From Pararhizobium capsulatum DSM 1112 (GTDB lineage: Bacteria; Pseudomonadota; Alphaproteobacteria; Rhizobiales; Rhizobiaceae): DNA of 64,000 nucleotides. This document shows, one piece after another, positions 17,301 to 34,458 of the stretch. A model generated the notes under the pieces. That model was not told the origin of the DNA. It searched no databases and saw nothing but the letters and a program-made list of their open reading frames with translations. Each line of letters begins with the position of its first letter. The first letter of the stretch is position 1. The DNA lies in assembly GCF_030814475.1 (NCBI RefSeq), contig NZ_JAUSVF010000003.1, positions 310,001-374,000 on the forward strand, given 5' to 3'. The position numbers and the translations under genes are program-made.

Positions 17301-18674
17301 TCAGCGCTCGACAACCTCACAACTCCGCTCCATGAGTTCACCGACGAACGCGGTGTTAAAGTTGCTCGATTGAAATTTCGGATGGCTCAAGACCATTTTG
17401 TGAAAGCCGGCGGTGGTGGTTACTCCCTCAATCACAACTTCATCAAGAGCTCTGCGCATCCTCGCAATAGCCTCATCGCGATCCCTCCCCCAGCATACGA
17501 GCTTGCCCACCATGGAATCGTAGAACGGCGGGATCACGTAGCCGGTCTCGATGTGGGTTTCCATCCTGACGCCAAACCCGCCCGGTGGATGATAGCGAGT
17601 GACTTTTCCCGGACTGGGCGCAAAATCCCGCTCTGGATTTTCCGCGTTAATGCGGCATTCAATTGCATGCCCCGAAATGCGGACGTCTTCCTGACGTAAC
17701 CTGATCGGCATTCCGCTGGCGATTTCGAGCTGCATCTTAATCAGATCGATACCCGTCACCATTTCCGAGACCGGATGCTCGACCTGAATGCGGGTGTTCA
17801 TTTCAATGAAGTAAAATTTCCGTTCGCTGTTATCAAAGACAAACTCCACCGTGCCGGCGTTCTTGTATTGCACAGCATTGCAAAGCGCGATTGCTGCCTC
17901 CGCAAGCGCGTCCCGCAGGGTCTGGTCGAGAACGGGCGAAGGCGCTTCCTCGATGAGTTTTTGATTGCGTCTTTGCGCAGAGCAGTCACGCTCCCCCAGA
18001 TGGAGCGTCCGGTTACCGTCGGAGATAACCTGAATTTCGATGTGCCTGATATCGGTCAGGTAACGCTCGATATAGACGGCAGCATCGCCGAAGGCGACCT
18101 CCGCTTCGGACATGATTTCCGACAGATCACGTTCGAGGGTTTCGCGCCGCTGCACGACACGCATGCCACGTCCGCCACCGCCTGCTGCTGCTTTGATCAG
18201 CAGGGGGAAGCCGACCTCGTCTGCAACAGCAAGTGCTTCCGCAGCGTCAGAAATGGAACCGATTGAGCCAGGAACATTTGGAACCCCCGCCTTACGGGCG
18301 ATTTTCTTGGCCTCGATCTTGTCGCCCATCTGGCGAATGACATGCCCGGGAGGGCCAACAAAGATGAGGCCTTCCTTTTCACACGTCTCGGCGAATTCTG
18401 AATTCTCGGCCAGAAAACCGTAGCCGGGATGGATGGCCTCCACCTTGAAGGCCAGAGCCGCGCCAATAATAGCCTGCTGATTGCGATAGCTGAACTTCGC
18501 CTGGGCAGGTCCGATGCAGATGGACTGATCGGCAAGCCTCACCGGCAGAGAGTCTGCATCCGCCTCAGAATAGGCAATCACGCTGCGGATACCAAGTTCC
18601 TTGCATGCCCGGATGATCCGCAGAGCGATTTCACCGCGATTGGCGATCAGAACACTCTTAATGAGTTCTGGCAT
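17301..18674 (-). CDS. accC: Biotin carboxylase subunit of a multi-gene carboxylase
   Basis: ATP- and bicarbonate-dependent carboxylation of biotin on the carrier protein. 457 residues, the normal AccC size. The N-terminal pre-ATP-grasp domain starts VLIANRGEIALRIIRACKEL. The glycine-rich loop KAAAGGGGRGM is at 161-171, HIEIQV and ERDCSAQRRNQKLIEE lie in the ATP-grasp core, and EMNTRIQVEH carries metal and catalytic residues near 285. The ATG at 18674 follows the carrier gene by 25 bases. Together with the carrier and a carboxyltransferase upstream it forms a complete biotin enzyme in three chains. A housekeeping acetyl-CoA carboxylase copy should exist elsewhere, so this is a specialised paralogue. 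Confidence 0.93.
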   Translation of the reverse strand: MPELIKSVLIANRGEIALRIIRACKELGIRSVIAYSEADADSLPVRLADQSICIGPAQAKFSYRNQQAIIGAALAFKVEAIHPGYGFLAENSEFAETCEKEGLIFVGPPGHVIRQMGDKIEAKKIARKAGVPNVPGSIGSISDAAEALAVADEVGFPLLIKAAAGGGGRGMRVVQRRETLERDLSEIMSEAEVAFGDAAVYIERYLTDIRHIEIQVISDGNRTLHLGERDCSAQRRNQKLIEEAPSPVLDQTLRDALAEAAIALCNAVQYKNAGTVEFVFDNSERKFYFIEMNTRIQVEHPVSEMVTGIDLIKMQLEIASGMPIRLRQEDVRISGHAIECRINAENPERDFAPSPGKVTRYHPPGGFGVRMETHIETGYVIPPFYDSMVGKLVCWGRDRDEAIARMRRALDEVVIEGVTTTAGFHKMVLSHPKFQSSNFNTAFVGELMERSCEVVER

Positions 18675-18699
18675 TGTTCGTCTCCCGATTTCCGCTCTA

Positions 18700-19197
18700 T
18701 CAGTGCTTCTTGATGATCATCAGCGGCTGGCCGTATTCGACAGGTTGTTCATTATCGACAAAGATCCTGGCGACGGTTCCCGCGACCCCGGCCTCGATGT
18801 TGTTCATCAGCTTCATAACTTCGACAATGCACAGGACGGTTTGCAAACCGACAGCGTCGCCGACCTTCACAAAATTCGGGGCTCCGGGTTTAGGCCCTGC
18901 ATAGAAGGTCCCGACCATTGGCGCCTTGATAAGGACCTCGTCTATGGCAAGTTCACTTGAGGCAGCAGCGGGTGCAGGCGCGACCACAACTGCCGGCGTA
19001 TCGGTTACGGCGCGCGTTGAAGACGATATTGCAAGGGAGGCAGGAACAACGGGCTCGGGAGTAACACCCTGCTTGTTGCGCGAGATGAACAGTTCCAGCT
19101 CGCCGAACTTCAGTGAGAATTCACGCACATCCTCCGTAACATTCACCCAGTCAACGATCGCCTTCACTTCTTTCAGATCGATATCTTTAAGCGACAT
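18700..19197 (-). CDS. accB: Biotin carboxyl carrier protein
   Basis: 165 residues; carries biotin between carboxylase and carboxyltransferase. The N-terminal part (LKDIDLKEVKAIVDWVNVTE, then DVREFSLKFGELELFISR) matches AccB. An Ala/Pro/Val-rich linker follows at 50-82, then a biotinyl domain with APMVGTFYAGPKPGAPNFVK and the attachment site EVMKLMN with Lys129. The chosen ATG at 19197 overlaps the carboxyltransferase end by 11 bases; the longer frame to 19233 lies wholly inside that gene. The AccB-type N-terminus beside an OadA/PycB-type partner is a mixed arrangement. Confidence 0.93.
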   Translation of the reverse strand: MSLKDIDLKEVKAIVDWVNVTEDVREFSLKFGELELFISRNKQGVTPEPVVPASLAISSSTRAVTDTPAVVVAPAPAAASSELAIDEVLIKAPMVGTFYAGPKPGAPNFVKVGDAVGLQTVLCIVEVMKLMNNIEAGVAGTVARIFVDNEQPVEYGQPLMIIKKH

Positions 19198-20728
19198 TTT
19201 CACTCTCTCCCTTTTCGAGGCTGATGCGTACATCCGCGGTTTTCAAGACGATGGTTCCGCGACTTTTTTTCTGGTGAAGACCCTTGATCACATCCAGAAG
19301 CGAAGATGGTGCATCGTCAGCCCTGCCGCCGGATGCCACGGCTTTCTGCATTTCATCGACCTGTGTGCCGGCGAACATCGCACGCAGCAGCACATGATCG
19401 ATGCTGTCGTCGGGATGGCGCGCATGAATGTCCGGCAGCATCGGCGCGATCGTTGTCGGCTCAAGCGCGATGTTGGACGCCCCATTGGCAATGATCCGGT
19501 CATGCAACTCGGGCGCAATCGGGGCCAGTAGCTTGCCATAATAACCGAGCGCATATTTCTTGATCTCGTTCGGTACGACACCGTACCGGTCACCTGAAAT
19601 CATGTTCATGACTGCCTGGGTTCCGACGAACTGGGCAAAAGGCGTGATCATGATCGGAAAAGCGAGCTCAGCGCGCACGCGAGCAACCTCGTAAAGGAGC
19701 TCATCGAACCGGTGCGAGAGACCCGCCGTTTCCAGTTGCGACCGGAAATTCGAGAGCATTCCGCCGGGGAGCTGGTGCATGTAGTGGAGGCCGTCATATT
19801 CCACCGGGATACCCAGTGGCTTGCCCTCGTCCTCCGCAATTTTTTTCAGCTTCTGCGAAATGGCGTCGATTGCGTCGTCGTTGACGTTCACCGTGTACCC
19901 AAGAGCCCGCAAATCACGCACGATACGTTGTGTCGATGGCTGGCCGGCACCATTGGCCAGCGGCGCGATCGATGTGTGCAGTGCATCGCAACCAAGTTCG
20001 ACCGCCTCCAGATAAACCAGTGGCGCCAAGGCTGTCAGGCAATGACTGTGAAGCTCGAGCGGGCGGTCGCCGATTACATTCTTGATGGCCGGAACTAGGG
20101 TTCGGATCCGTTCAGGCGTCAACAGACCACCCGCGTCCTTGAGCATGATGGCATCGACATCGGTCTTGTCGATCAGTTCACGTGCCTTAGAGATATAGAG
20201 CTCGTCCGTGTGCACCGGGCTTTCGCAAAACGACAGAGCGCCGAAAGTGGAGGCCCCGAGTTCCTTGGCCCTGACGAGACCGGGCGCGATATTGTCGATG
20301 TCATTCAGGCCGTCGAACGAGCCTATAACGCGGAATCCGTTCGCATAAAGTCTTTCGACCCAAGCCTTGATGACGTCGTCAGCCAAAAAATCGAACGAAG
20401 CAATGTTCTTTGAACGGACCAACGCCCGAAACAGGGTATTCGGCGCGGCCTTGTGGGCCAGTCTTACCCGCTCCCAGGGGTCTTCCTTGAGATAGCGAAC
20501 CGCGACATCGAACTGGATCGGCGCCATCAGGTCGACCTGTTCGAACCCGCCATGATCGAACTCATCCGCCATGGAAAGAATGTGTTCTGTGCGCATGCGT
20601 GTCGCCCACAGGCTCTGGTGCGCGTCCCGCAGGGTCGTGTCGATGATCTTGATCTCGCGCCGACTGTTTGGCGGGCGGCCGCCCATGCTCATGATGCTGG
20701 CGATCGTTTGCTTGTCTTCTATCGTCAT
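19187..20728 (-). CDS. Carboxyltransferase subunit, OadA/PycB-like
   Basis: 513-residue homologue of the carboxyltransferase of oxaloacetate decarboxylase alpha and two-subunit pyruvate carboxylase. The HMGL-like TIM barrel opens IKIIDTTLRDAHQSLWATRM at 27-45. MLKDAGG carries the metal-bridging lysine at 197 and LELHSHC the metal histidines at 227 and 229. A PYC_OADA conserved region follows (YDGLHYMHQLPGGMLSNFRS, then GTQAVMNMISGDRYGVVPNE). No biotinyl domain is fused; the carrier is the next gene. Pyruvate is the usual acceptor or product, so it may feed or drain pyruvate/oxaloacetate for this sugar operon, or use another 2-keto acid. Confidence 0.85.
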   Translation of the reverse strand: MTIEDKQTIASIMSMGGRPPNSRREIKIIDTTLRDAHQSLWATRMRTEHILSMADEFDHGGFEQVDLMAPIQFDVAVRYLKEDPWERVRLAHKAAPNTLFRALVRSKNIASFDFLADDVIKAWVERLYANGFRVIGSFDGLNDIDNIAPGLVRAKELGASTFGALSFCESPVHTDELYISKARELIDKTDVDAIMLKDAGGLLTPERIRTLVPAIKNVIGDRPLELHSHCLTALAPLVYLEAVELGCDALHTSIAPLANGAGQPSTQRIVRDLRALGYTVNVNDDAIDAISQKLKKIAEDEGKPLGIPVEYDGLHYMHQLPGGMLSNFRSQLETAGLSHRFDELLYEVARVRAELAFPIMITPFAQFVGTQAVMNMISGDRYGVVPNEIKKYALGYYGKLLAPIAPELHDRIIANGASNIALEPTTIAPMLPDIHARHPDDSIDHVLLRAMFAGTQVDEMQKAVASGGRADDAPSSLLDVIKGLHQKKSRGTIVLKTADVRISLEKGESENVA

Positions 20729-20816
20729 CTCATCGGTCTCCCGTCATTGTTTTCCAAGTTGCATCCGACATCGCCTGCAAGTCCCAGAGGCGGAATTCCC
20801 GGTGCCTCCGAAAGGA

Positions 20817-21905
20817 TCACGCGGCCAACCTCTCGACGCGACGGATCGCAGCAGCGACATCGACGGCGGTGATCGAGAATGGCAGGTTGTTGAGATGCGG
20901 CGCGGTCATTGTCCAATCGGCGATTTCGGCAATTTCCGCTCCAGTAGCGTCCTCCATGCCGAGTTGCTGTAGGGTCGTGGCAAGTTCGATGGAGCGGTGA
21001 AATGCGATTATGTCCGCAAGCTCAGCATCAGAGCGACCCTCCGCGGCAAGCTGGACCAAAACACCCCAGGCGACGTGCTGACCATGAATCGCATTTTTCG
21101 CACCCCGCGCCTTGACCAGGCCGCGCGTCAGCGAATGGGACAGCGATAATCCCCCATTTTCGAAACCAAGGCCGCTCATCAAGATCACCGCCTCGATGGT
21201 AGCCTCGAGGGCGTCGCTGACTTCACCGAGCTCCACTGACTGCAGTGCGGCTTCGGAATGCTCTCGCAGGACGCGGTAACAAGCATCGGCGATGACGATA
21301 GCGGTAAGCAATGGCCGAGTGCCGAAGGGGGTTATGCCATTGCCGGCAAGGCATCCGTCCGCCTCGAATTTTTTCGAGATCGCGTCGCCTATCCCGGCGC
21401 GCAAAAATAGCGCCGGCGCAGCCGCAATCAATTTCGTATCGACGATCACCGCCTGCGGGCTGCGCTTCAAACGGTCGACTGAGATCATTACGTGATGGTC
21501 GTCATACATCGCGATCGAAGCGCTAGTCGGGCTGTCGTTGGAGGCAATGGTCGGAACGGTGATCACATCGATGCCAAGCTTTAGAGCCAGCCCCTTCGAT
21601 GCATCCAGCGATTTGCCGCCGCCAATGCCGATGGCGACACTAGGAACGATGCCGCCCAACGTGGCAATGACCGCATCAATGGCTGCATAGGTGATCTCGC
21701 CGTCAAACGCACATATGATCGGCGTAAGCCCAGCATCCCTCAGGATGGCTTCGATGCGGGGGCCCATCTTTTCGAGAATGAACGCATCGGCGATCACCGC
21801 CGGTGACGGGCCGAAGGCAGCAGCCACCTGGCCAAGTTCATCCAGCGCGTCTGGTCCCTGGATATAACGATGGGGCGCGCCAAAAATTTTTCGAATACTC
21901 GTCAT
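20817..21905 (-). CDS. GldA-like iron-containing alcohol dehydrogenase
   Basis: NAD-dependent polyol dehydrogenase of the glycerol dehydrogenase group, 362 residues. The dinucleotide-binding GIGGGKSLDASKGLA lies near 92-106, ITVPTIASNDSPTSASIAMY near 115, then the metal-site residues: Asp in RAGIGDAISKKFEA, His in GLSLSHSLTRGL, His in HGQHVAWG. Family members interconvert glycerol and dihydroxyacetone or similar polyols. The ATG overlaps the cupin gene stop (ATGA). With the split transketolase and FGGY kinases in the same operon, a role in handling dihydroxyacetone or another short ketose is plausible but inferred. Confidence 0.85.
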   Translation of the reverse strand: MTSIRKIFGAPHRYIQGPDALDELGQVAAAFGPSPAVIADAFILEKMGPRIEAILRDAGLTPIICAFDGEITYAAIDAVIATLGGIVPSVAIGIGGGKSLDASKGLALKLGIDVITVPTIASNDSPTSASIAMYDDHHVMISVDRLKRSPQAVIVDTKLIAAAPALFLRAGIGDAISKKFEADGCLAGNGITPFGTRPLLTAIVIADACYRVLREHSEAALQSVELGEVSDALEATIEAVILMSGLGFENGGLSLSHSLTRGLVKARGAKNAIHGQHVAWGVLVQLAAEGRSDAELADIIAFHRSIELATTLQQLGMEDATGAEIAEIADWTMTAPHLNNLPFSITAVDVAAAIRRVERLAA

Positions 21906-22456
21906 CGGGTGATCCTCTCGGCATAATCGGCACCTAAACCAATTGCCTCGTAGTGGCGGCGGACCATTGCCAGCTTTGTAAACACATCCTCGTAGCCGAG
22001 CGCCACACCGTTCGGATCGACATAGACGTAGCCACCGGTGACGTGGAACAAGGTGATCATTTCCGGAACGTCGTCTGGAACCACTAGAGTGTGCGTTTCG
22101 CCAGGAGGCTCGAAGGCATAACTCTGCGGCACGGCTTCCCAGTCATGCTCAAGGTATGACCAGCGGCCGCGAAGGGTAAAGGCGTGTACCGGGCCAGCAT
22201 GCCGGTGTCTCGACAGGACACCGGAATTGCGAACCCTCAACAAATTGACATAGTAACCTTGGCTCACGCAGAGCACGAGCGGCTTGAACCACACGCCATC
22301 TGCCTGTGGCACCCACAACTCCTCGCCCGCATCGAGATCAATGGCTCCCGCCATAAAGATATCCGGCATCATGCCGAAGGGCTGCGGTCCGCGATAGGCA
22401 ATTTTGGAGTGGTCGCGGCGATCCGGAACAGTCTCGCGGCCGGTTTCATCGAGCAT
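21902..22456 (-). CDS. Cupin, 2,4'-dihydroxyacetophenone dioxygenase-like
   Basis: 184-residue single cupin with an AGGAGG site before the ATG at 22456; the longer frame to 22615 lies inside the next gene. Metal-type residues are in GVLSRHRHAGPVHAFTLRGR and the second cupin motif in YAFEPPGETHTLVVPDDVPE. A C-terminal stretch FHVTGGYVYVDPNGVALGYE then DVFTKLAMVRRHY is shared with the dioxygenase family that cleaves 2,4'-dihydroxyacetophenone. In a sugar operon such a cupin could act on a hydroxyketone or aldose as an isomerase or oxygenase. The exact reaction cannot be told. Confidence 0.75.
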   Translation of the reverse strand: MLDETGRETVPDRRDHSKIAYRGPQPFGMMPDIFMAGAIDLDAGEELWVPQADGVWFKPLVLCVSQGYYVNLLRVRNSGVLSRHRHAGPVHAFTLRGRWSYLEHDWEAVPQSYAFEPPGETHTLVVPDDVPEMITLFHVTGGYVYVDPNGVALGYEDVFTKLAMVRRHYEAIGLGADYAERITR

Positions 22457-22475: not shown

Positions 22476-23252
22476 TCAATCCAATGGGAACGCGTCGCTG
22501 GGCGCCCCCCAGGAGCAGTAGCCTCCGTCCACCGGCAGCGTGATGGCGGTGATAAACTTCGCCTTGTCCGAGGCCAGGAACACCATCGCCTCGGCGATGT
22601 CCTCGGCCGAACCAAGCTTGCCCATCGGCGTGCGCCGGCGGATGCGCTTCTCGTCGATCTTGCCCTCGGCGATCAGCTTTTCGGTGAGCGGCGTCAGCAT
22701 ATAGCCGGGGGCCACCGCATTGACGCGGACATTGTGGGGACCCCATTCGCAGCCGAGTACCTGGGTAAGCATACCGATGCCGGCCTTGGCGGCGCTGTAG
22801 GCGGTGCGGACCGGCAGGCCGAGCAGGCCGGCGATCGAGTTGAGATTGAGGATGACCCCGGATTTCTGCGCAATCATCGAGGGCGCTACGGTTTTCGACA
22901 CCAGATAGGTGCCGGTCAGATGCACATCGAGCAGGCGCTGCCAATGGGTGAGCGTTTGCTCGACCGTTGGCGTGAAGCTGTCGGGCATGCCGGCATTGTT
23001 GACGAGGATGTCGATGCGGCCGAAGCGTTCCAGCACAGTCTTGACCATGGCCTCGACATCGGCCTCGCTGGAGACGTCGCCGCCGACAGAGAAATGTTTA
23101 TCCCCGAGCCGGGCGGCCGCCTCCCGGGCGGCGTCGGCCCGCAGGTCGTTGATGACCACGGTTGCGCCCTCGCGGGCAAAGGCGGTGGCGGTGGCATAGC
23201 CCAGCCCGCTCGCGCCGCCGGTGACGAGCGCAATCCTGTCTTGCAGAAGCAT
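22476..23252 (-). CDS. Short-chain dehydrogenase/reductase
   Basis: Classical SDR of 258 residues, cytoplasmic, NAD(P)-dependent. The cofactor motif TGGASGLG lies at 11-18, NNAGMP near 88, catalytic Tyr and Lys in YSAAK near 155, and the end DGGYCSWG is typical. The acidic residue after the second strand (INDLRADAA) favours NAD. It starts 9 bases after the transketolase C-half gene. Likely oxidises or reduces a sugar, polyol or aldonate intermediate. Confidence 0.88.
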   Translation of the reverse strand: MLLQDRIALVTGGASGLGYATATAFAREGATVVINDLRADAAREAAARLGDKHFSVGGDVSSEADVEAMVKTVLERFGRIDILVNNAGMPDSFTPTVEQTLTHWQRLLDVHLTGTYLVSKTVAPSMIAQKSGVILNLNSIAGLLGLPVRTAYSAAKAGIGMLTQVLGCEWGPHNVRVNAVAPGYMLTPLTEKLIAEGKIDEKRIRRRTPMGKLGSAEDIAEAMVFLASDKAKFITAITLPVDGGYCSWGAPSDAFPLD

Positions 23253-23261
23253 GGTTCTCTC

Positions 23262-25138: not shown

Positions 25139-26047
25139 TCATACCGGCAGACCGGGGCGAGCCCAGTCCATCGACACCAGTCGGCCGCTGCCTGACAGGG
25201 TAACAAAGGCGGTCTTCATCTCGGGACCGCCGAAGCACAGATTGGTGGTGTAGGGGTCGGGGGTGCGGATGCGCTCGACCTCGGTTCCATTCGGGGAGAC
25301 CACGACGATGCCGCCGAGCCGCAGCGTGGCGATGCAGATATTGCCGCCGGCTTCGACGGCGAGCGAATCGTAGCGCTGGAAGCCCGGCAGGCCGGCTGCG
25401 AGATCGCCACCGGTCGGCGACGGCCAGTCGACCTTTGCCAGGACCCCGGGTGCGTCGATCTTCCACGACCACAGCCGGCCTGACGAAGTTTCGGCGACAT
25501 AGAGAATGCGGCCGTCCGGCGACAGGCCGATGCCGTTGGGACCGACCAGCGGATAGGCGACCTCCTGGATGAAGCTGCCATCGGCCCTGGCATAGTAGAC
25601 GGCACCGAAATCGACCTTGCGACCCTCGCGGTGGCCGTGATCGGTGAAATAGAAACCGCCATGGCTGTCGAAGACGATGTCGTTGGGGGCCGACAGCGGG
25701 ATAGCGCCGCAGCGGTCATAAAGTATTTCGACCTTGCCGGTTTCCGGGTCTACGCGTTGGATACTGCCGCCCGTATTGTCAGGTGCCTTGCCGACCGGGC
25801 GCCAGCCGGCCGGGCCGCGATCCCAGCTGAAGCCGCCATTGTTGCAGACATAGATATGACCGTCCGGCCCCATGGCTAGGCCATTGGGGCCACCGCCGGT
25901 GTCGGCGACCAGCGACTTGTTCCCATCGGGCGTGATCCGGGTCAGCTGACCGCGGCCGATTTCGCCGAGCACGATACTGCCATCCGGCACTAGCACCGGA
26001 CCTTCCGGGAAGGCCAGATCGCCGGTGATTTCGATAAAATCCCTCAT
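25139..26047 (-). CDS. SMP-30/gluconolactonase family lactonase
   Basis: 302-residue six-bladed beta-propeller hydrolase. Metal-binding features are seen in FPEGPVLVPDGSIVLGEIGR (first Glu), GPNGLAMGPDGHIYVCNNGG, SAPNDIVFDSHGGFYFTDHG and GPNGIGLSPDGRILYVAETS. Such enzymes open sugar lactones made by sugar dehydrogenases. No signal peptide is present, so it acts in the cytoplasm. Its start overlaps the HAD gene stop. A lactonase beside an SDR suggests an oxidative arm (aldose to lactone to aldonate) in the same pathway. Confidence 0.85.
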   Translation of the reverse strand: MRDFIEITGDLAFPEGPVLVPDGSIVLGEIGRGQLTRITPDGNKSLVADTGGGPNGLAMGPDGHIYVCNNGGFSWDRGPAGWRPVGKAPDNTGGSIQRVDPETGKVEILYDRCGAIPLSAPNDIVFDSHGGFYFTDHGHREGRKVDFGAVYYARADGSFIQEVAYPLVGPNGIGLSPDGRILYVAETSSGRLWSWKIDAPGVLAKVDWPSPTGGDLAAGLPGFQRYDSLAVEAGGNICIATLRLGGIVVVSPNGTEVERIRTPDPYTTNLCFGGPEMKTAFVTLSGSGRLVSMDWARPGLPV

Positions 26048-26736
26048 TGTGATGCCCTGGACATATGCGCGACGCCGAGGGCGGCCGCGAGGCCGGCTAC
26101 GTTGTCGACTAAAACCGTTGGGGTATGGGTAGCCAGCAGCGAGCCGTCATAAAACCCGTAGCTCACAGCGACGCAGTCCATGCCGGCGGCGCGGGCGGCG
26201 AGAATGTCCTGCGGCCCGTCACCGACATAGACAGCATCGCCGACATTGGCCCCCGCGCGCTCGAGCCCGAGCAGGATCGGCGCCGGATGCGGCTTGCGAT
26301 CGACAGTGTCCTCGGCGGTTACGATGGCGGCAAAGACTTCCGGTGCGATGTTCGCGACCTGGAGGTCGATCAACGTGCGCTCAAGCCCCTTGTTGGTGAC
26401 GACGCTCGGCTTGCGGCCGGCGCTGGCCAGGTCGAGGATCAGTTCGCGGATGCCAGCAAAGACTTTGATCAGCGCCGTGCATTGCGGGTAGGTGTCGCGA
26501 TAGGCAGCGTGCAGCTCGTCGATCCGGTCCGGCGCGACGACGGCAAACACTTCCGCCGGGCGCATGGCGAACAGGTCGGCGATCGGAAATTCTTCCGGCG
26601 GAAAGTTGCTGTCGAGCTTGCTGCGAAAGACGCGGGTGTAGCATTCGACGACGGCGCCGCGGGTGTCGACCAGGGTGCCGTCTAGGTCAAACAACACGTG
26701 CATCTTCTGTTTTGGATTGGGAGATGCGAGCGTCAT
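26044..26736 (-). CDS. HAD-superfamily phosphatase (Gph-like)
   Basis: 230 residues. The nucleophile motif FDLDGTLVDTRG is at 16-27, TNKG is motif II near 115, the RKPHPAPILLGLE lysine is motif III and VGDGPQDILAARAAG motif IV. It is similar to phosphoglycolate phosphatase and sugar-phosphatase proteins. It overlaps both neighbours by ATGA. It may clear a dead-end phosphorylated sugar or act as a pathway step; substrate unknown. Confidence 0.85.
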   Translation of the reverse strand: MTLASPNPKQKMHVLFDLDGTLVDTRGAVVECYTRVFRSKLDSNFPPEEFPIADLFAMRPAEVFAVVAPDRIDELHAAYRDTYPQCTALIKVFAGIRELILDLASAGRKPSVVTNKGLERTLIDLQVANIAPEVFAAIVTAEDTVDRKPHPAPILLGLERAGANVGDAVYVGDGPQDILAARAAGMDCVAVSYGFYDGSLLATHTPTVLVDNVAGLAAALGVAHMSRASQ

Positions 26737-28280
26737 GGCGCGTCCTTTGTGTGGTCAGTGCGCTCCAGGAGTGCAGCACGAAGTTTCCAGAGAGGGGCCA
26801 AATCGCGGCCGAGGTCGCGAAACAGCGGATAGGCAGCGGCATAACGGACGGCTAGCTGCGGATCGGGTTCGACGGTCGCGGCAATGCGGACCATGGCGGC
26901 GGCGGCGGCGGTCAGGCTGTCGTAAAAGCCGGCCGCCCTGGCGGCGAGCAGAGCGACGCCGAGCGCGCCGGTCTCCTCCGCCTCCGGCACCAACAGCGTC
27001 CGGTTCATCGCCGCGGCGCAGATCTCCCGCCACAACGGCGAACGCGCACCGCCACCGGTGATGCAGATGGTGTCGACCGGCGCGTTTAGCGCGCCGTAAC
27101 AATCGATCATCGAGAAGGCGACGCCTTCCATCACCGCGCGGATCAGCGCCATCGGCGAGGTCGCCATGTCGAGGCCGAAGATCGAACCGCGGGCCAGCGG
27201 CTCGTGGCGCGGCGCGGTCATGCCGGAGGTGTTGAAATAGGGATGGATGACCAGGCCGTTGCTGAGCGGCGCAATCGCCCGCGCCTCGGTCTCGATGCGG
27301 GTGAACAGGTCGTCGTCGCCGCCGAAGGCTTTGGCGCCAAAGGCTTCGACGATCCAGTCGAGGCAGAGCGAGCCGCCGCCGGTGTTGGACATCAGCCGCT
27401 GCCAGCGGCCGTCCGGCATCAGGAACAGGAAACCGACGCCCTCCGGCTCCAGAAGCGGCTGGTCGACGGTGAGATTGTTCATGAAGCTGGTACCGATCAC
27501 CGTTACCGCCTGGCCGCTAGCGAGCGCGCCGACGCCAATCGCGGCGGCCACCGCATCGCCGGCGCCGGTCACGACCAGCGTGCCTTCCGTCAGCCCGGTC
27601 TCGGCGGCGGCCACAGCCGTCACCCGGCCGACGACGGCGCCGATCTCCAGCACTGGGGCTAGTTTTTCCCGCATCTCGGGAATGCCGGCGAGCGCGAACA
27701 GATCGTCGGAAGGTTTGCGGCTGCGGATATCACAGGGAAACAGCGACAGATCGGATTCATCTGTGGCGATGTTTCCGGTCAGGCGGTAATTGACATAGTC
27801 CTTGGCGAGAAAGACGGTCTCGATGCGGTTATAGAAACTGCGGTCATTGTCCTTCAGCCAGGCGAGCAGCACCAGCGGCAGGCCGGGAATGGGCGCGTTA
27901 CCGGAAATCTCGAACAGCTTTTTCACCCGGCATTCGTCGCGCCAACGCTCAAGAAGCGCCGAGGCCCGTGCATCCGGCCAAGCGATGGCAGGACCGGCCG
28001 GCCGGCCTTGCGCGTCGAGCGACCAGAGGCCGCCCATATGGCCGCTGACACCGACGGCGGCGATCTCGCTAGCCGCGATGCCGGCACGGTCGATCGCCTC
28101 GCGGATGGCAGCGGCCACACCAGCATAGGTGCCGTCCATGTCTTCCTCGTGCCAGTCCGGATGCGGCCGGAAGCTCTTGGTCGGGCGGCGGGCGGTGGCC
28201 AGCACCCGGCCATCGGCGGTGTTGAAGATCGCCGCCTTGGTGGTGGTGGTGCCCTTGTCGATGCCCAGCACATAGCTCAT
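26733..28280 (-). CDS. FGGY-family carbohydrate kinase 2
   Basis: 515 residues. The actin-like ATPase fold begins VLGIDKGTTTTKAAIFNTAD; VGVSGHMGGLWSLDAQGRPA carries the FGGY substrate-domain pattern, VVTGAGDAVAAAIGVGAL the catalytic aspartate (GDA), and CITGGGARSPLWREICAAAM the second ATP motif. It overlaps the previous kinase gene (ATGA). The two proteins share the same layout but have diverged, so they may use different substrates or form a hetero-oligomer. Family substrates include xylulose, ribulose, erythritol and apulose. Confidence 0.9.
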   Translation of the reverse strand: MSYVLGIDKGTTTTKAAIFNTADGRVLATARRPTKSFRPHPDWHEEDMDGTYAGVAAAIREAIDRAGIAASEIAAVGVSGHMGGLWSLDAQGRPAGPAIAWPDARASALLERWRDECRVKKLFEISGNAPIPGLPLVLLAWLKDNDRSFYNRIETVFLAKDYVNYRLTGNIATDESDLSLFPCDIRSRKPSDDLFALAGIPEMREKLAPVLEIGAVVGRVTAVAAAETGLTEGTLVVTGAGDAVAAAIGVGALASGQAVTVIGTSFMNNLTVDQPLLEPEGVGFLFLMPDGRWQRLMSNTGGGSLCLDWIVEAFGAKAFGGDDDLFTRIETEARAIAPLSNGLVIHPYFNTSGMTAPRHEPLARGSIFGLDMATSPMALIRAVMEGVAFSMIDCYGALNAPVDTICITGGGARSPLWREICAAAMNRTLLVPEAEETGALGVALLAARAAGFYDSLTAAAAAMVRIAATVEPDPQLAVRYAAAYPLFRDLGRDLAPLWKLRAALLERTDHTKDAP

Positions 28281-29809
28281 GCCGCCATCTCCGGAACCAG
28301 GCGCAGATCGGCGCGGGCCGTCGAGTAGCTGCGATAGACATCGCGGGTCCGGCGGTAGAGATCGAACCAGCCGTCATAGTCGCGCGCCGCGTGCGGGTCC
28401 GGCCGGTAACAGGCGACGATCCGGGTGGTTCTTGCTGCCGCAGTCTCCAGGTCGGGCCACAAGCCGACGGCGACACCGGCCAGCAGTGCAACGCCCAGGG
28501 CACCGGATTCCTCCGTGGCGACGATCTCGATCGGCAGGCCGCAGACATCAGCGAACAACTGCGACCAGAAGGCGCTCTTGGCGCCGCCGCCAGTGAGGAT
28601 CAGCGATTGCGGCCGGGTGCTCATCGCCGCAAAACAGTCGCGGGTGGCAAAGCACAGGGCCTCGTAGACGGCGCGCAGCAGGTGATCATAGCTGGTATGG
28701 CTGCCGACCCCGAAAAAGTTGCCGCGGGCCAGCGTGTCGTAGAACGGCGCCAGCACGCCGCTGCCGTTGACATAGGGAATGAAGGTAACACCACCGGCGC
28801 CGCGGGCGATGCCGGACGCCTTCACCTCGAGGGCTGTAAAGTCCGGCGTTCCGTCGGGCATCAGGGGCGCGCCGAACCGTTCCAAAAACCAGTCGAAGGC
28901 GATGGTGCCGGAGGTATTGGGCAGGATTCGTAGGTATCGGTCGAGCGGCATCGAGAACAGGAAACCGAGGCCCTCCGGCTCCCTGCCGGGAGCGCCCAGC
29001 ACCTGGCTGTTGAGGCAGCTGGTGCCAAGCACCGTCAAAGCAGCGCCGGGGCGGATCGCGCCGACGCCAAGGGCATTGGCGCAGGCATCGCCAAGACCGG
29101 TGACGACGGGCGTGCCTTCGCGCAGGCCGGTTTCAGCTGCAGATGCTGCAGAAATGATGCCGGCAATGGCGCCGGACGGCAGGATAGTTGGCAGCTTGTC
29201 CATCCAGGCGGAGGCACCGCAAAGCTCCATCACCCGCGCCGAATGCGCGCGTCCTTCGATATCGCCGGGCACGAAGGAGACGTCGGAGGGATCGGTGGCG
29301 ATCTCTCCGGTCAGCCGGAAGCGTAAGAAATCCTTGGCGCAGAGCACGGCACGGGTTCGCGTCACCGTTTCCGGCTCGTGGCGGGCGAGCCAGCCGAGCA
29401 GCATAGCGGTGATGCCAGGCATCAGGCCGTTGCCGGAGATGGCGAAGACTTCAGTCAAAAGGCCGGTCTTTTCCATGGCGATCTGGTCGGCTTGGGCGCG
29501 CTCGTCCGGCCAGCAGATGGCGTTGCGCACCGTTGCCCCATCGGAATCGATCAGCCAGGCGCCGCCCATATGGCCGGCAATGCCGATCGCGGCGATATCG
29601 GCACCAGTGAGGCCGGCCTTGGTCAACGCCTCACGGATCGTCTCGGCGCACAGCGCCCAAGTGGCCTCCGGTGCTTCCTCGTGCCAGCCGGGCTTGGGCT
29701 GCAGCACCTGGACGCGGCGCTGCGACACGCCGACGGTCTCCCCTTCCGTGTCGAAAACCACCGCCTTGATAACAGACGTGCCCTTGTCGATGCCGAGCAG
29801 ATACACCAT
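28277..29809 (-). CDS. FGGY-family carbohydrate kinase 1
   Basis: 510 residues with all kinase motifs: LLGIDKGTSVIKAVVFDTEG, IGIAGHMGGAWLIDSDGATV, VVTGLGDACANALGVGAIRP (catalytic Asp in GDA), and LILTGGGAKSAFWSQLFADV. It starts 9 bases after the importer ATPase, so sugar uptake is directly linked to phosphorylation. It probably commits the imported compound (or its ketose form) as a phosphate that the split transketolase then uses. Confidence 0.9.
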   Translation of the reverse strand: MVYLLGIDKGTSVIKAVVFDTEGETVGVSQRRVQVLQPKPGWHEEAPEATWALCAETIREALTKAGLTGADIAAIGIAGHMGGAWLIDSDGATVRNAICWPDERAQADQIAMEKTGLLTEVFAISGNGLMPGITAMLLGWLARHEPETVTRTRAVLCAKDFLRFRLTGEIATDPSDVSFVPGDIEGRAHSARVMELCGASAWMDKLPTILPSGAIAGIISAASAAETGLREGTPVVTGLGDACANALGVGAIRPGAALTVLGTSCLNSQVLGAPGREPEGLGFLFSMPLDRYLRILPNTSGTIAFDWFLERFGAPLMPDGTPDFTALEVKASGIARGAGGVTFIPYVNGSGVLAPFYDTLARGNFFGVGSHTSYDHLLRAVYEALCFATRDCFAAMSTRPQSLILTGGGAKSAFWSQLFADVCGLPIEIVATEESGALGVALLAGVAVGLWPDLETAAARTTRIVACYRPDPHAARDYDGWFDLYRRTRDVYRSYSTARADLRLVPEMAA

Positions 29810-29818
29810 GCCCCTGCC

Positions 29819-30976
29819 TCAGCCGTACGAGGCCATGCGGTCGACCTGCGGCGCAGACTGACCGGATGCAAATCGCAGCGTGCGCTGATCGTCGCCATCG
29901 AACACATAGAGCGCGTCCTCGCGGATCACGACATCTACCGGCTCGTCTATCCCAAAGCGATACTGCGGTGATGTCATCGCCTGGATAGTCGTATCACCGG
30001 CCTGAACCGTGACAAGGATCGCATCGCCAAGTTGCTCGGCGACATAGACGCGGCCCGACAGCCTCAATGCAGCGCCATCACGCGGTGCTTCTCCTTGTTT
30101 GTAGACCGAGACGCCTCCCGGCCGGCTGCCGACCTGAACTTTTCGACCTTGCGCACTCACATGCGGCTTGACGCAATCGGGCAAAATGACTTTCTGCTGT
30201 CCACATTGGCCGACAAGCTCCGGCGTTTCGTGCACGTCGCAGATAGTGAAGACGTTCATCGAATGCAGACCGAAAAACTGTGCCACGAACGCGTTTACGG
30301 GGCGCATGTAAATCTCGTCGGCAGTGCCGATCTGCTGCATCAGGCCGTCCCGCATCACAGCGATGCGATCGGTCATGGTCATGGCCTCGATCGGGTCATG
30401 GGTTACGATCACCGAAGTGGTGCCGAGCGCCCGCTGCAATCGCTTCAACTCGCCGCGCAGGCGGGCGCGCAATAGCGTATCGAGATGGGCGATCGGCTCG
30501 TCGAGGCAAAGTAGATTGGGACGACGGACCAGGGCGCGGGCGATGGCGACCCGCTGCTGCTGACCTCCGGACATCTGCGAGGCGCGGCGGTCGATCAAAT
30601 GACCGATATTAAGAAGCGCAGCGACTTCTGCCACCTTCGTCTCGATCTCGGACTTGGAAAGACCGCGGATTTTGAGGGGATAGCTGATGTTCTGACGCGC
30701 GCTCATATGCGGATAAAGCGCATTCTGCTCGAATACCATCGCGACATTGCGGTCCTGCGGTGTTTTCGCCTCGACGGAGGTGCCGTCGAAAGAGATCGTT
30801 CCGGAGGTTGGACGCTCCAGTCCCGCAAGCATTCGCAGCACGGACGTCTTGCCGGAACCTGAGGGACCGAGCAGGCCAAAAAACTCGCCGTCCTCTATCT
30901 TGAACGAGATATCGCGAACTGCATGAACCGCGCCGCCATACCATTTGTTGATCCCGGAGAGGGTGACTGATGCCAT
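29819..30976 (-). CDS. Sugar ABC importer ATPase (UgpC/MalK type)
   Basis: 385 residues from the ATG at 30976 (MASVTLSG); the much longer open frame upstream is non-coding. Walker A GPSGSGKTS near 39-47, signature MSGGQQQRVAIARAL, Walker B LLCLDEPIAHLD, and a C-terminal TOBE region (VGSRPGGVSVYKQGEAP). It energises the two permeases encoded just upstream. The signature and TOBE domains match importers of polyols, glycerol-phosphate and oligosaccharides. Confidence 0.93.
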   Translation of the reverse strand: MASVTLSGINKWYGGAVHAVRDISFKIEDGEFFGLLGPSGSGKTSVLRMLAGLERPTSGTISFDGTSVEAKTPQDRNVAMVFEQNALYPHMSARQNISYPLKIRGLSKSEIETKVAEVAALLNIGHLIDRRASQMSGGQQQRVAIARALVRRPNLLCLDEPIAHLDTLLRARLRGELKRLQRALGTTSVIVTHDPIEAMTMTDRIAVMRDGLMQQIGTADEIYMRPVNAFVAQFFGLHSMNVFTICDVHETPELVGQCGQQKVILPDCVKPHVSAQGRKVQVGSRPGGVSVYKQGEAPRDGAALRLSGRVYVAEQLGDAILVTVQAGDTTIQAMTSPQYRFGIDEPVDVVIREDALYVFDGDDQRTLRFASGQSAPQVDRMASYG

Positions 30977-30987
30977 GACTGATCTCC

Positions 30988-31863
30988 TTACCGTCCGCCG
31001 CTGCCGACGGAAAAACTGCGAATGAGGAAGCGCTGCATGTAGTATGAAAGGACGAGCAGCGGTGCGATTGCGACAATGCCGATGGCGCCGAGCTGGCCCC
31101 AGTTCGGTTGCTGGAACAGGAAGAAGCTGGCCAGTGCCTTCGGCAGGGTAATAACCTTTTCCCCGGTAAGGACGAGCGCGAATAGGAACTCGTTCCAGGC
31201 AAAGATCATGGCCAGAATACCGGCCGTGAGGATGCCCGGCGCCGAGAGCGGAAGCAGGACATCCCAGAATAGGCGATACCAGGGCGCTCCGTCGATGCGA
31301 GCAGCTTCCTCGTAGGTCTTTGGAATCTGGCGGATGAACTCTGCCAGAAGCCAGATGACCAACGGCAGGTTCATGAACGTGTAGACCACGATCAGTCCCG
31401 TATAGGTATCGAACAGCGACAATTCCTGGAACAGGAGGTAGAAACCGATGACAGGGACGATGGGGGGCATCATCCGAAGGGAGAGGATGGTGAAACTGAG
31501 CTGACCGTGTGCCGAGAACCACCGCGCTAGCGCGTAGGCAGCGGGATAGCCAAGGATAAGGCAAAGCACCGTTGAGATCGAGGCTACGAACAAGCTGTCA
31601 CCGATCCCCTTGCCACCACCGATTGCCCAGCCTTCGGTGAAATTGACCAACGTGCCGTTGATCGGCAGCACCGACGGCGGGCTGGTGAACAGCTCCGCAT
31701 AGGGCTTGAATGCCGTGAGAAGCAGCCAGGCGAGCGGTAGCAGGAAAAGTACGAGTACCATGATCAGTACCACATGCTTGACCACGACGGACAGACGCAC
31801 CGCCAACGTCACATTTTCAGCCGCGGAGACGTCGGCGTAGGGTGTTGAAACCGACATGGTCAT
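30988..31863 (-). CDS. Sugar ABC importer permease (MalG type)
   Basis: 291 residues, six spans. Features: VLIMVLVLFLLPLAWLLLTA FKPYAELF at the first span, and the coupling loop EFIRQIPKTYEEAARIDGAP before LFWDVLLPLSAPGILTAGIL. ATG at 31863 overlaps the stop of the other permease. The protein ends near RFLIRSFSVGSGGR, as MalG-type proteins do (xGAVKG-like end varied). Confidence 0.92.
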   Translation of the reverse strand: MTMSVSTPYADVSAAENVTLAVRLSVVVKHVVLIMVLVLFLLPLAWLLLTAFKPYAELFTSPPSVLPINGTLVNFTEGWAIGGGKGIGDSLFVASISTVLCLILGYPAAYALARWFSAHGQLSFTILSLRMMPPIVPVIGFYLLFQELSLFDTYTGLIVVYTFMNLPLVIWLLAEFIRQIPKTYEEAARIDGAPWYRLFWDVLLPLSAPGILTAGILAMIFAWNEFLFALVLTGEKVITLPKALASFFLFQQPNWGQLGAIGIVAIAPLLVLSYYMQRFLIRSFSVGSGGR

Positions 31864-32861
31864 GGGTTTTCTCCCTGAAATGTATGCGCAGAGGCGTTGA
31901 ACACCGTAGGCGGCAGCGGGGAATCGGAAACCGGCCCCTTTTCGCGGCTTTTCGCAAAGCTCAGGATCGCCATCGTGCCGCCGGTCAGAAGCACCAGCTG
32001 GATGATGCTGAGTGCACCGGCGATCGAAAATTCGAACCGCCCGAAACCCATGTCGTACGTGTAGTAGGCGAGGTTCTGGGTTGCAGTGCCGGGACCGCCA
32101 CGCGTCAGAATATAAATGATATCGAACACTCGGAAACTGTCGATGAAGCGCAGCACGAAGGCTACCATCATGTAGGGAAACAACATCGGCAGCACGATGT
32201 GGACAAAGGTCTGCCAGCGATTGGAGCCGTCGACCCTGGCCGCCTCGTAGACCCGCTGCGGGATCGAGTTAAGACCGGCCAGAAGCACGATCATCACGAA
32301 TGGCGTCCACTGCCAGGTGTCGACGACCACCAGCGTCGGCAAAGCCCAATCGGGAGACTGCGCCCAGGCCGGCGGGTCGAAACCGATGGCTTTCAACAGG
32401 TTGTTGAGCGGCCCGTAGATAGGATTCAGGAAAAGATTCCATGAAAAGCCGACAACGATCGGCGCCACCATCATTGGGATCAGGAACAGTGATGCATAAA
32501 ATTCACGCCCGCGGGTCACACCGTTTAAAAGAAGTGCCATGCTGAGGCCGGCCACGATCTGCAGCGGCACAGCGACAAGCGCAAAAATTCCGGTAATGCC
32601 AAGGCTGCTCCAAAAACGCGGATTCGTCATCATCCTGGTGAAATTGTCGACGCCGACCCATTCGATCGGAATCGGAATTGCAAGCTGATAGGACGTAAAG
32701 GACGCGTAGATGAGGTAGACGAACGGCCAGACCGATAGAACCGCCAGAAAAGTCAGCGCCGGTCCGAGGAGAAACAGCGTCGCCCGCCGCTCTCGCCTGT
32801 TATCACTGGTTTTCGTTGCAGGTGGCAATGCTGTGCCCTGAACGGGTATCGTGGTCATCAT
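31860..32861 (-). CDS. Sugar ABC importer permease (MalF/UgpA type)
   Basis: 333 residues; the N-terminal cytoplasmic tail of about 30 residues is followed by ATLFLLGPALTFLAVLSVWP and five further spans. The coupling loop is LNSIPQRVYEAARVDGSNRW, then FVHIVLPMLFPYMMVAFVLR. The start at 32861 (MMTTIP) has two possible ATGs. It is separated from the binding-protein gene by a strong hairpin. Partner of the MalG-type permease. Confidence 0.92.
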   Translation of the reverse strand: MMTTIPVQGTALPPATKTSDNRRERRATLFLLGPALTFLAVLSVWPFVYLIYASFTSYQLAIPIPIEWVGVDNFTRMMTNPRFWSSLGITGIFALVAVPLQIVAGLSMALLLNGVTRGREFYASLFLIPMMVAPIVVGFSWNLFLNPIYGPLNNLLKAIGFDPPAWAQSPDWALPTLVVVDTWQWTPFVMIVLLAGLNSIPQRVYEAARVDGSNRWQTFVHIVLPMLFPYMMVAFVLRFIDSFRVFDIIYILTRGGPGTATQNLAYYTYDMGFGRFEFSIAGALSIIQLVLLTGGTMAILSFAKSREKGPVSDSPLPPTVFNASAHTFQGENP

Positions 32862-32921
32862 GACATCCGAATTCTGTGTAGAAGCTGATGGATCGAGCCG
32901 GAGCGCGTCTCCGCCGACGAT

Positions 32922-32952
32922 CTGTCGCCGCCGGAAATCCCGGCGGCGACAG
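32922..32952 (-). terminator. Strong hairpin between the binding-protein gene and its permease
   Basis: CTGTCGCCGCCGG-AAATC-CCGGCGGCGACAG is a perfect 13-bp stem with a 5-base loop, just past the binding-protein stop (10 bases downstream on the minus strand). No U-tract follows, so partial attenuation or 3'-end protection of the first-gene message is more likely than full termination. Confidence 0.65.
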
Positions 32953-32961
32953 CGGGGAGGA

Positions 32962-34458
32962 TCAGGACCAGTAGCCCTGCTTGATCATCCGCTGACGGTA
33001 TTCGTCATAATGCGCGATTTGGCGGTCACGACCGTACGTCTCGGTTGTTTCCTCGAACTCGGCCGTCATCGCCTCCAATGCTTCTTTCGGCGTTGCCTGG
33101 CCGGTGATCGCACGCGGAACATGCTGCATGATTGAACTGAGATAGCGGTTGGTGCCAGGGATCGAGATGTCGAGATATGCCTTGGGCGCTGCCAGAAGTT
33201 CCTTGCTCACGCTTGCGAAATTGTCCGCAAAACCGGATTCCGCCTGAAGCGGGAAGGTGCTCTTCGGATCGTCGAACATGCTGTTGCGCCACGGGTCCAT
33301 CAGCGATTGCTCGAAGGTCTCGGCAACCCATCGATTGGCATTCGCCGATTGCTGCATCCAGGCAATGACCTTGAACGCACCTTCCTTGTTCGCCGAGTTG
33401 CCGGCAATGCCCATCGCACGACCGTAGGGAAGGACAGTTACGTCGCCGAAACTGCGGGCGCACTTGATCTTATTGGCCACCTTAGAGATCTTCGGATCGG
33501 CAGCGCCCTTCGGCATGTCTGTCCACCAATTGGCCTGGGCCACGCGACCGTCGAAAAATATCTGCCGCCCGACATCCCACGGCATCGCTTGGGCGAGATC
33601 CTTCGGCATGAAGGCGGACATTTCGGTGTAGCGACGGATGGCCTCCTCGCCGATTTCATTGACAAGCTTAGGCTTCATCTGTTCATCGAAAAGTTCGCCG
33701 TAGCGCACGCCTTTTTCCGAACCCAATTGGACCAACTGGTTAATGAAGAAAGCATAGACGAAGAAGCTTGTTACCTCGACGTGGCCGTAGAGATTCTGAT
33801 CGGGTCGGGTGAAGAATTCCGCGGTATCGCGATATTCCTTGTAACCCTTGGGGGGCGCCAGATCGTACCCATATTTCGTCTTGAAAGTCTGCATCTCCTG
33901 TTCGTTTTCGAACAGGTCGGTCCGGTAGGTATTGATGAACATATCGCCATCAATCATGACGCCGACAACTTTGTTCTCATAGATGTTTAATTGTTGGAAC
34001 GGCTTGGCGATGTCGGAGAAATTGAGTTCCTCGAGCGTGCCGACCTCTTCGAGCGGCGTCAGGAACGGGCCGAAGTCACCCACGAAATTTGGCCAGAAAT
34101 CAAAGACGTCAAAGCGGGCTGTGCCCTGCCGCAGGGCCAGCAGGTTCTGGTCGTACATATTGCCGAGCGGATAGGATGCAAACTCGACATCGATACCAGT
34201 AGCTGCCTTAAACTCCGGGGCAAAGTTTTTGAGGATTGGTGTGAACGCCCCGCTGTCGAGACCGACCACGACCTTGCCGCTGCCGTCCTGACCTGCAGCC
34301 GATAGAACACCTCCGAAGGTTGACAGGGTGGCAGCAGCACCAAACATTGCGCTGCGACGCATGAGTTCACGCCGCGATATCAGGCCGTGGGTATCCATGC
34401 TGGATAGAATGTCGAGATCGCGCTCGACGGCTTTCGGACGTCTGTTAAACAGATGCAT
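32962..34458 (-). CDS. Sugar ABC importer substrate-binding protein
   Basis: 498 residues, extracellular solute-binding protein family 1. A twin-arginine leader is evident: ISRRELMRRSAMFGAAATLS starting near residue 27, ending near SAAGQ, so it is probably exported folded by Tat. The mature part includes FAPEFKAATGIDVEFASYPL, YDQNLLALRQGTARFDVFDF and GWRRIDxx-like late segments typical of family 1 sugar receptors. GGAGGAG lies 9 bases before the ATG. It heads the leftward operon and thus defines its promoter. The long N-terminal region before the RR motif is unusual. Confidence 0.9.
   Translation of the reverse strand: MHLFNRRPKAVERDLDILSSMDTHGLISRRELMRRSAMFGAAATLSTFGGVLSAAGQDGSGKVVVGLDSGAFTPILKNFAPEFKAATGIDVEFASYPLGNMYDQNLLALRQGTARFDVFDFWPNFVGDFGPFLTPLEEVGTLEELNFSDIAKPFQQLNIYENKVVGVMIDGDMFINTYRTDLFENEQEMQTFKTKYGYDLAPPKGYKEYRDTAEFFTRPDQNLYGHVEVTSFFVYAFFINQLVQLGSEKGVRYGELFDEQMKPKLVNEIGEEAIRRYTEMSAFMPKDLAQAMPWDVGRQIFFDGRVAQANWWTDMPKGAADPKISKVANKIKCARSFGDVTVLPYGRAMGIAGNSANKEGAFKVIAWMQQSANANRWVAETFEQSLMDPWRNSMFDDPKSTFPLQAESGFADNFASVSKELLAAPKAYLDISIPGTNRYLSSIMQHVPRAITGQATPKEALEAMTAEFEETTETYGRDRQIAHYDEYRQRMIKQGYWS

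Follow-up and report, generated by a model that had tools for sequence, protein, structure and literature searches.

What does a biotin-dependent carboxylase do at the end of an operon that otherwise looks built to import and break down a sugar or polyol? The question is raised by a locus of the soil bacterium Pararhizobium capsulatum DSM 1112, located within a 64,000-nucleotide stretch (contig NZ_JAUSVF010000003.1, positions 310,001 to 374,000; hereafter the window) of a 662-kb contig, in a genome of 6.48 Mb and seven contigs. Here, 16 open reading frames (ORFs), all on the minus strand, run from 34458 to 17301, tightly packed behind a divergent MocR-type regulator. In order, they encode the binding protein, two permeases and ATPase of an ATP-binding cassette (ABC) importer, FGGY kinases A and B, a HAD phosphatase, an SMP-30 lactonase, the N and C chains of a transketolase, an SDR dehydrogenase, a cupin, a GldA-like dehydrogenase, and the carboxyltransferase (CT), biotin carboxyl carrier protein (BCCP) and biotin carboxylase (BC) chains of the carboxylase. 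Judging from protein sequences, the three-chain enzyme is probably a methyl-ketone carboxylase; this class is well supported, and we infer a link between the enzyme and the transketolase.

Class of the three-chain carboxylase

Family models resolve the carboxylase into three separate chains, namely CT, BCCP and BC. In a midpoint-rooted tree of 39 CT chains, 30 ketone-side chains are parted from 9 pyruvate-type chains by a branch with support of 100/100, and the window CT lies on the ketone side. The same side holds the CT of a plasmid cluster of Rhizobium leguminosarum BT01 (L181; NZ_CP125638.1 595160-610614), to which the window CT is 38% identical. This cluster encodes a phosphoenolpyruvate (PEP)-utilising enzyme, a PEP/pyruvate-binding protein, a biotin protein, BC, CT, a HAD protein, an acetoacetate-CoA ligase and an amidohydrolase, eight gene kinds that match hpeHICBADEF of Rhodococcus rhodochrous GD02; the label hpe-type was assigned by this gene content, not by comparison with the GD02 or EbN1 sequences. 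According to the report on strain GD02 (PMC9618137), HpeCBA carboxylates phospho-acetovanillone, an aryl methyl ketone, and not acetovanillone, and HpeD strips the phosphate from the carboxylated product. None of the 16 operon proteins was identified as a kinase of the HpeHI type (PEP-synthase-like). Plasmids of Pseudomonas putida YC-AE1 (L191) and Sphingomonas bisphenolicum AO1 (L193), both bisphenol A degraders, carry a related biotin carboxylase together with a Tm-1-like ATP-binding protein and a HAD gene.

The three chains might alternatively form a pyruvate carboxylase, replenishing oxaloacetate while the cell grows on the sugar. They match Pfam and NCBIfam families of that kind and pass the PRK09282 model named pyruvate carboxylase subunit B, and the window CT (structure model with a pLDDT of 70) retains Arg34, Asp35, Gln38, Arg105, Lys197, His227, His229 and Thr362 of the pyruvate-type enzymes, among which Asp35, Lys197, His227, His229 and Thr362 are presumably the metal and carbamyl-lysine catalytic positions. 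The pocket, however, is changed, with APIQ-FD in place of GGAT-FD and KDA in place of KDM, where Ala replaces Met. Compared with pyruvate carboxylases and oxaloacetate decarboxylases, the CT thus agrees at the catalytic positions and disagrees both in the pocket motifs and in its group placement, across the fully supported branch from all nine pyruvate-type chains. Moreover, another frame in the genome is PYC-like and of full length, and CoA-transferase genes adjoin the relatives of the CT. On all these grounds we regard a pyruvate carboxylase as improbable.

The neighbours of close CT relatives point to a 3-oxoacid as the product. Specifically, a pair of 3-oxoacid CoA-transferase A and B genes was found, among the matches listed, at 17 of the 34 loci with the closest CTs, counting L054, L064, L065 and L066, which the neighbour clustering left out because the GC3 gene picker made no ct call in them; 8 of these 17 are Corynebacterium loci, where the CoA-transferase is merely 44-49% identical and lies beyond an MFS gene, and part of the query was taken from the pair of L064. 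With the Corynebacterium loci set aside the count is 9 of 21. It is 0 of 30 at the control loci, which were mostly fetched for their transketolase and include several stretches of one genome; one control locus (L155) itself carries the carboxylase of genome G199. At least 13 Corynebacterium loci (L067-L079) show CT-BCCP-BC with a divergent MFS transporter gene and a CT of 64-67% identity.

Individual loci illustrate the same association. Both genes of the Cnuibacter CoA-transferase pair score above the NCBIfam cut-offs for a 3-oxoacid CoA-transferase. In Vreelandella maris, TRAP transporter genes, a hydrolase and the same cupin (56% identity) come after CT-BCCP-BC, with two CoA-transferase chains and a thiolase diverging, and a Leucobacter cluster combines an amino acid permease, a gene resembling gamma-aminobutyrate (GABA) transaminase, a CoA-transferase pair and a thiolase. 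The operon of the window is without a CoA-transferase, and homologues of acetoacetate-CoA ligase (38%) and 3-oxoacid CoA-transferase A (54%) lie elsewhere in the genome. The initial annotation had seen no obvious place for the carboxylase, a view that needs correction given its grouping with the hpe-type chains and the CoA-transferase genes at half of the nearest loci.

Layout and recurrence of the operon

Judged from its packing and its recurring gene order, the gene set is a real, conserved operon. Four-base overlaps occur at five junctions (permease 1/permease 2, kinase A/kinase B, kinase B/HAD, HAD/SMP-30 and cupin/GldA), and further overlaps measure 8 and 11 bases, the latter depending on the second Met chosen as the carrier start. 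The genes lie furthest apart downstream of the binding protein (100 bp) and upstream of the carboxyltransferase (88 bp); the SDR-cupin gap is 19 bp with the cupin start at 22456. Among the sites listed by a terminator scan, none falls in the 88-bp gap between GldA and CT. The hairpin after the last gene is weak evidence, because the scan finds 21 sites against 14.6 expected; a scan for promoter-like sites is at chance level (5 observed, 5.4 expected). As the gene order recurs in other genomes, it is not due to chance. These results bear out the initial view of a single-strand operon with ATGA-type overlaps, and Pfam and NCBIfam searches (SBP_bac_1, FGGY, HAD, SMP-30/SGL, SDR, Cupin_7, Fe-ADH/GldA, PYC/OADA-type carboxyltransferase, biotin carrier and biotin carboxylase) confirm the gene identities it had given. 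GC content is 0.55-0.60 in the importer genes, 0.62-0.67 from kinase A to SDR and 0.54-0.59 from cupin to BC, and a mosaic origin is possible.

The same operon, carboxylase included, was found in at least two further genomes, those of Rhizobium sp. PP-CC-3A-592 (L049/L155/L156) and R. lusitanum JHI1118 (L050/L157/L158), so that in at least three genomes, the window's included, the carboxylase follows GldA at this position. Genomes G178 and G013 and Paracoccaceae La6 share the regulator, importer, kinases, HAD, SMP-30, transketolase and GldA, and are without the window-type SDR and carboxylase; G013 has four ORFs between SMP-30 and transketolase, and of the two scanned, one is a TctA and the other has no Pfam match. 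A shorter transketolase-cupin-GldA module is present in G372 and G419, with kinases absent from the stretches fetched. Among the Actinomycetota, Cnuibacter holds transketolase, SDR and GldA together, with the cupin and carboxylase about 20 kb off on the same plasmid, while Herbiconiux and Nakamurella each combine in one stretch relatives of kinase B (49% and 45%) and HAD (47% and 41%) with SDR, transketolase and GldA. In Variovorax VAI-C (L168; CP063167.1 1747463-1772410), transketolase-GldA-SDR lies between a Liv-type ABC transporter and genes for an acyl-CoA ligase, dehydrogenase and hydratase.

The transketolase occurs at 81% identity or more in 3 of the 199 genomes of the own-family sample and at 80% or more in 3 of the 397 genomes of the order sample, the own genome included in both. 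The protein searches scored 7,999 and 7,996 candidates, those sharing most words with the query; among the former, the CT is 93% identical to a protein from a Shinella genome, and a locus scan returned at least 79 CT loci. Within the family of the Herbiconiux genome G206, CT is present in 3 of 249 genomes and transketolase in 2, both of which also have CT, a thin co-occurrence given that the sample was drawn around one of these two and that Cnuibacter itself is probably the other.

Table 1. Features of the operon and of its flanks (window coordinates).
Feature	Position	Strand	Basis or remark
ABC sugar-binding protein (SBP_bac_1), 498 aa	32962..34458	-	Pfam; relatives search; fold comparison
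ABC permease 1	31860..32861	-	Pfam
ABC permease 2	30988..31863	-	Pfam; overlaps permease 1 by 4 bases
ABC ATPase (UgpC/MalK type), 385 aa	29819..30976	-	Family models
FGGY kinase A (XylB-like)	28277..29809	-	Family models; 43% identity to kinase B
FGGY kinase B (XylB-like)	26733..28280	-	Family models; Nakamurella and Herbiconiux relatives
HAD phosphatase (PpaX/phosphoglycolate phosphatase-like)	26044..26736	-	Scores under cut-offs of those equivalog models
SMP-30/gluconolactonase-like lactonase	25139..26047	-	Pfam
Transketolase N chain, 280 aa	24253..25095	-	Family models, alignment
Transketolase C chain, 332 aa	23262..24260	-	Family models; Tyr in place of Asp before Gly-X-Thr/Ser-His motif
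SDR dehydrogenase	22476..23252	-	Family model; relatives 54% (Cnuibacter), 58% (G419)
Cupin, 2,4'-dihydroxyacetophenone dioxygenase-like, 184 aa	21902..22456	-	E=4.4e-30 to 4p9g; three iron-binding His kept
GldA-like iron alcohol dehydrogenase	20817..21905	-	Passes glycerol dehydrogenase subfamily cut-off
CT chain of biotin carboxylase	19187..20728	-	Family models; ketone-carboxylase side of tree
BCCP	18700..19197	-	Biotin domain with biotinylation motif EVMKLMN
BC chain	17301..18674	-	Family models
Terminator-like hairpin past last stop	17284..17299	-	Terminator scan, weak
Intergenic region shared with divergent regulator	34459..34609	.	Imperfect inverted repeat 34501-34518/34530-34547
MocR-type regulator, divergent	34610..35983	+	Family models; same position in G178, G013, La6, G199, G200
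NAD-dependent epimerase/PRISE-like protein behind mocR	35993..37090	+	Family model; adjoins mocR also in G178, G199, G200

MocR-type regulators usually sense amino compounds or pyridoxal phosphate, and are a poor fit to a plain sugar. No PRISE-like epimerase was seen beside mocR in La6 or G013. Elsewhere in the window, 38143-49745 groups genes for a Zn-alcohol dehydrogenase, a pyrroloquinoline quinone dehydrogenase, an ABC-2 transporter with its ATPase, a beta-propeller protein and a Peripla_BP_6 protein, and 4005-10090 groups those for an SBP_bac_5 binding protein, a double ABC ATPase and a DUF6963/DUF7259 protein.

A candidate pathway and its alternatives

We tentatively propose, with somewhat less than even confidence, that a branched substrate is imported, oxidised, phosphorylated and split by the transketolase, and that the leftover ketone either gains a carboxyl group to become a 3-oxoacid or is split by the cupin. 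The importer would take up a sugar-like polyol or ketose with a tertiary alcohol, GldA and/or the SDR would oxidise it to an alpha-hydroxyketone, and one or both FGGY kinases would phosphorylate the latter. Following the chemistry of its family, the transketolase would then move the two-carbon end to glyceraldehyde 3-phosphate, yielding xylulose 5-phosphate and a leftover fragment, predicted to be a methyl ketone such as hydroxyacetone phosphate, for which 3-C-methylerythrulose 4-phosphate would be the simplest source. The HAD phosphatase may remove the phosphate before or after carboxylation; by analogy with the kinase, carboxylase and HAD of the Hpe system, either order would fit alike. The biotin enzyme would add bicarbonate to the methyl group, a step favoured by its family and neighbourhood, and the cell's CoA enzymes would convert the resulting 3-oxoacid to acetyl-CoA units. 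The cupin dioxygenase may provide a second outlet by cleaving the alpha-hydroxyketone.

A branched substrate is suggested by the class of the carboxylase. When a transketolase cuts beside a tertiary alcohol, the remaining fragment is a ketone, as with apulose 4-phosphate. Given the placement of the operon enzyme among methyl-ketone carboxylases, a tertiary alcohol most likely adjoins the cut, and the fragment is most likely a methyl ketone: if the tertiary carbon bears a methyl, the ketone would be a methyl ketone, the kind of substrate used by HpeCBA. Whether the carboxylase draws its substrate from the transketolase step is close to an even call, leaning towards no, and it is rather unlikely that this substrate is hydroxyacetone or its phosphate in particular.

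Several features of the proteins bear on the individual steps. The binding-protein model (pLDDT 70) resembles the fold of CUT1-type sugar-binding proteins, its best matches spanning many specificities, which is in line with import of a sugar or polyol; the top Foldseek matches 4rya and 5iai are presumably mannitol and ribitol binders and were not used as evidence. Of 7,996 candidates scored, 53 are relatives of the binding protein at E<=1e-60; identity is 61-95% for 52 of them and 41% for the remaining one, a pattern that suggests a closed family. Together, the families and this fold support the earlier view that the operon serves to import and catabolise a sugar or polyol by means of a two-chain transketolase and FGGY kinases. 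Family models find both the thiamine diphosphate-binding N domain and the pyrimidine/C-terminal domains of the transketolase. The motif Asp of transketolases contacts the alpha-hydroxyl of the aldehyde part, and its loss would therefore suit a fragment without an alpha-hydroxyl. The Tyr of the window transketolase family takes the place of Asp in aligned PDB split transketolase and DXS chains; it is only a hint to the fragment, because the more distant two-chain transketolases in the alignment share it, except the E. coli apiose and own-genome C4 chains (both Leu).

Compounds of the alpha-hydroxyketone kind are made by GldA and serve transketolase as donors. The cupin, searched with two extra residues at its start, matches 4p9g and 5bpx at E values of about 1e-30 and two further cupins more weakly. 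All three of its iron-binding His align to His76, His78 and His114 of 2,4'-dihydroxyacetophenone dioxygenase, with a numbering offset of 21 counted by hand; this enzyme is reported to act on an aryl alpha-hydroxyketone, which it splits into formate and a carboxylic acid (PMC4219425).

A number of observations weigh against the proposed pathway. A carboxylase of this type is absent from all four genomes drawn by transketolase alone (G178, G013, G372 and G419; 80-89% identity), which show only long pyruvate-carboxylase frames at 29-31%, as well as from six genomes with transketolases of 56-60% and from the La6 and Variovorax records (12 of 12 in total), and is therefore not essential to the transketolase step. 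The case for a transketolase-carboxylase link thus comes down to three rhizobial operons and to three Actinomycetota that hold both in one genome. A transketolase of at least 57% was found in only 5 of the 33 CT-holding genomes or records searched (two plasmid records and 31 of the at least 79 CT loci), and among the 199 own-family genomes a near CT is found only in that of the window, plus one relative at 50%. TRAP transporter genes, which are typical of acids, adjoin the carboxylase in two halomonad relatives, and given the Liv-type ABC and acyl-CoA genes beside transketolase-GldA in Variovorax, the module may serve something other than sugars in some genomes. Arg34, Gln38 and Arg105 match what we take to be pyruvate-site residues, and three hpe-type chains carry Thr at position 105. 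HpeCBA is reported to be inactive on its unphosphorylated ketones (PMC9618137). As HpeCBA needs a phosphorylated ketone and the window CT keeps the three residues, use of neutral ketones is not implied.

Several of these counts favour an unbranched tetritol or ketose, which the transketolase would convert to xylulose 5-phosphate and glycolaldehyde phosphate; HAD and GldA would handle the glycolaldehyde, and the carboxylase would be a separately acquired ketone scavenger sharing the promoter. Besides its absence from the four genomes, the carboxylase occurs without such a transketolase in 28 of the 33, GldA reaches 292 bits with a glycolaldehyde reductase model, short of the cut-off of 550, and GC content is 0.62-0.67 from kinase A to SDR versus 0.54-0.57 from CT to BC. 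Yet the carboxylase recurs at its place behind GldA, and cupin and carboxylase share the Cnuibacter plasmid stretch and the Vreelandella locus, which leaves this reading somewhat unlikely. Alternatively, the carboxylase might act on a keto acid, with the sugar as the source of the acid; levulinate, giving 3-oxoadipate, was considered because the neighbouring thiolase in Cnuibacter resembles PcaF, scoring best against 3-oxoadipyl-CoA thiolase models, below cut-off. The TRAP and MFS neighbours of relatives, the retained Arg105 and the GABA-transaminase-like Leucobacter gene (below cut-off) also fit. With an importer of sugar type in the window, and no route seen from the transketolase product to such an acid with the operon enzymes, action on a keto acid is very unlikely.

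The initial annotation had further suggested kinship to the enzymes of D-apiose use. The E. coli cluster tied to growth on D-apiose, with genes named in strain SE15 (PMC13001218), matches the operon in its kinds of enzyme, namely an FGGY kinase, a two-chain transketolase, SDRs and a sugar ABC importer. However, the window transketolase chains are merely 34.8% and 31.8% identical to its chains and kinases A and B 22.5% and 21.2% identical to its kinase; HAD, cupin and carboxylase are missing from the SE15 cluster, and family searches found no match to an aldose isomerase family among the 16 operon proteins. The kinship is thus not borne out. At such low identity, orthologues of apulose-4-phosphate transketolase and apulose kinase were not recognised and a D-apiose operon was rejected; a divergent form of that pathway, with an apulose kinase and an apulose-4-phosphate transketolase, is highly improbable. 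The operon then offers a second two-chain transketolase family, set apart from the apiose one.

Returning to the branched-substrate pathway, one specific candidate is 2-C-methyl-D-erythritol or related 2-methyltetrols, which arise in plants and through the atmospheric oxidation of isoprene. GldA would give 3-C-methylerythrulose, a kinase its 4-phosphate, the transketolase xylulose 5-phosphate and hydroxyacetone phosphate, and the biotin enzyme would turn the ketone into a 3-oxoacid. No 2-methyltetrol pathway of this kind is named among the literature matches listed, and we consider this assignment a long shot. In the literature searched, no described pathway joins these kinases and this transketolase to the same carboxylase and cupin, in agreement with the earlier claim of an undescribed pathway; the key hpe paper was also missed by the searches, so their silence says little. 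If true, the proposed pathway would mean that biotin-dependent carboxylation of methyl ketones is not confined to aromatic ketones and also operates where a sugar pathway ends. It would assign a role to a carboxylase subfamily whose named entries, in the search that scored 7,999 candidates, are called pyruvate carboxylase subunit B, oxaloacetate decarboxylase alpha, carboxylase or hypothetical protein, and would point at branched polyols whose breakdown was not found described in the literature searched.

Comparison with known systems

D-apiose catabolism shares with the operon an FGGY kinase and a two-chain transketolase, and neither retains the Asp of the transketolase motif, the E. coli apiose chain having Leu there and the window chain Tyr. 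It differs in its low identity, whereas the operon lacks an isomerase and has the additional HAD, SMP-30, GldA, cupin and carboxylase. The 2,4'-dihydroxyacetophenone dioxygenase has in common with the operon cupin its family and the three iron-binding His, with moderate similarity, while its natural substrate is aromatic.

Pyruvate carboxylase, PycB and the alpha chain of oxaloacetate decarboxylase share the fold family and the metal and lysine catalytic residues of the window CT, but stand across a fully supported branch from it, and the window enzyme has an altered pocket and a separate carrier. The acetone carboxylase AcxABC would resemble the proposed enzyme in making a 3-oxoacid from a ketone; it is described as a biotin-free alpha-beta-gamma enzyme that works via phosphoenolacetone (PMC5543143), and membership of this type was rejected for the operon enzyme, which has a biotin carrier. 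The nearest parallels are HpeCBA of R. rhodochrous GD02 and XccBCA of Aromatoleum aromaticum. The operon departs from them in that its kinases are FGGY and not HpeHI-like, that it has no CoA ligase or hydrolase, and that it is linked to sugar genes. Like them, it keeps biotin carrier, carboxyltransferase and biotin carboxylase as separate chains, and it parallels the Hpe system further in its HAD phosphatase and kinases, with the hpe-type chains on the same side of the tree.

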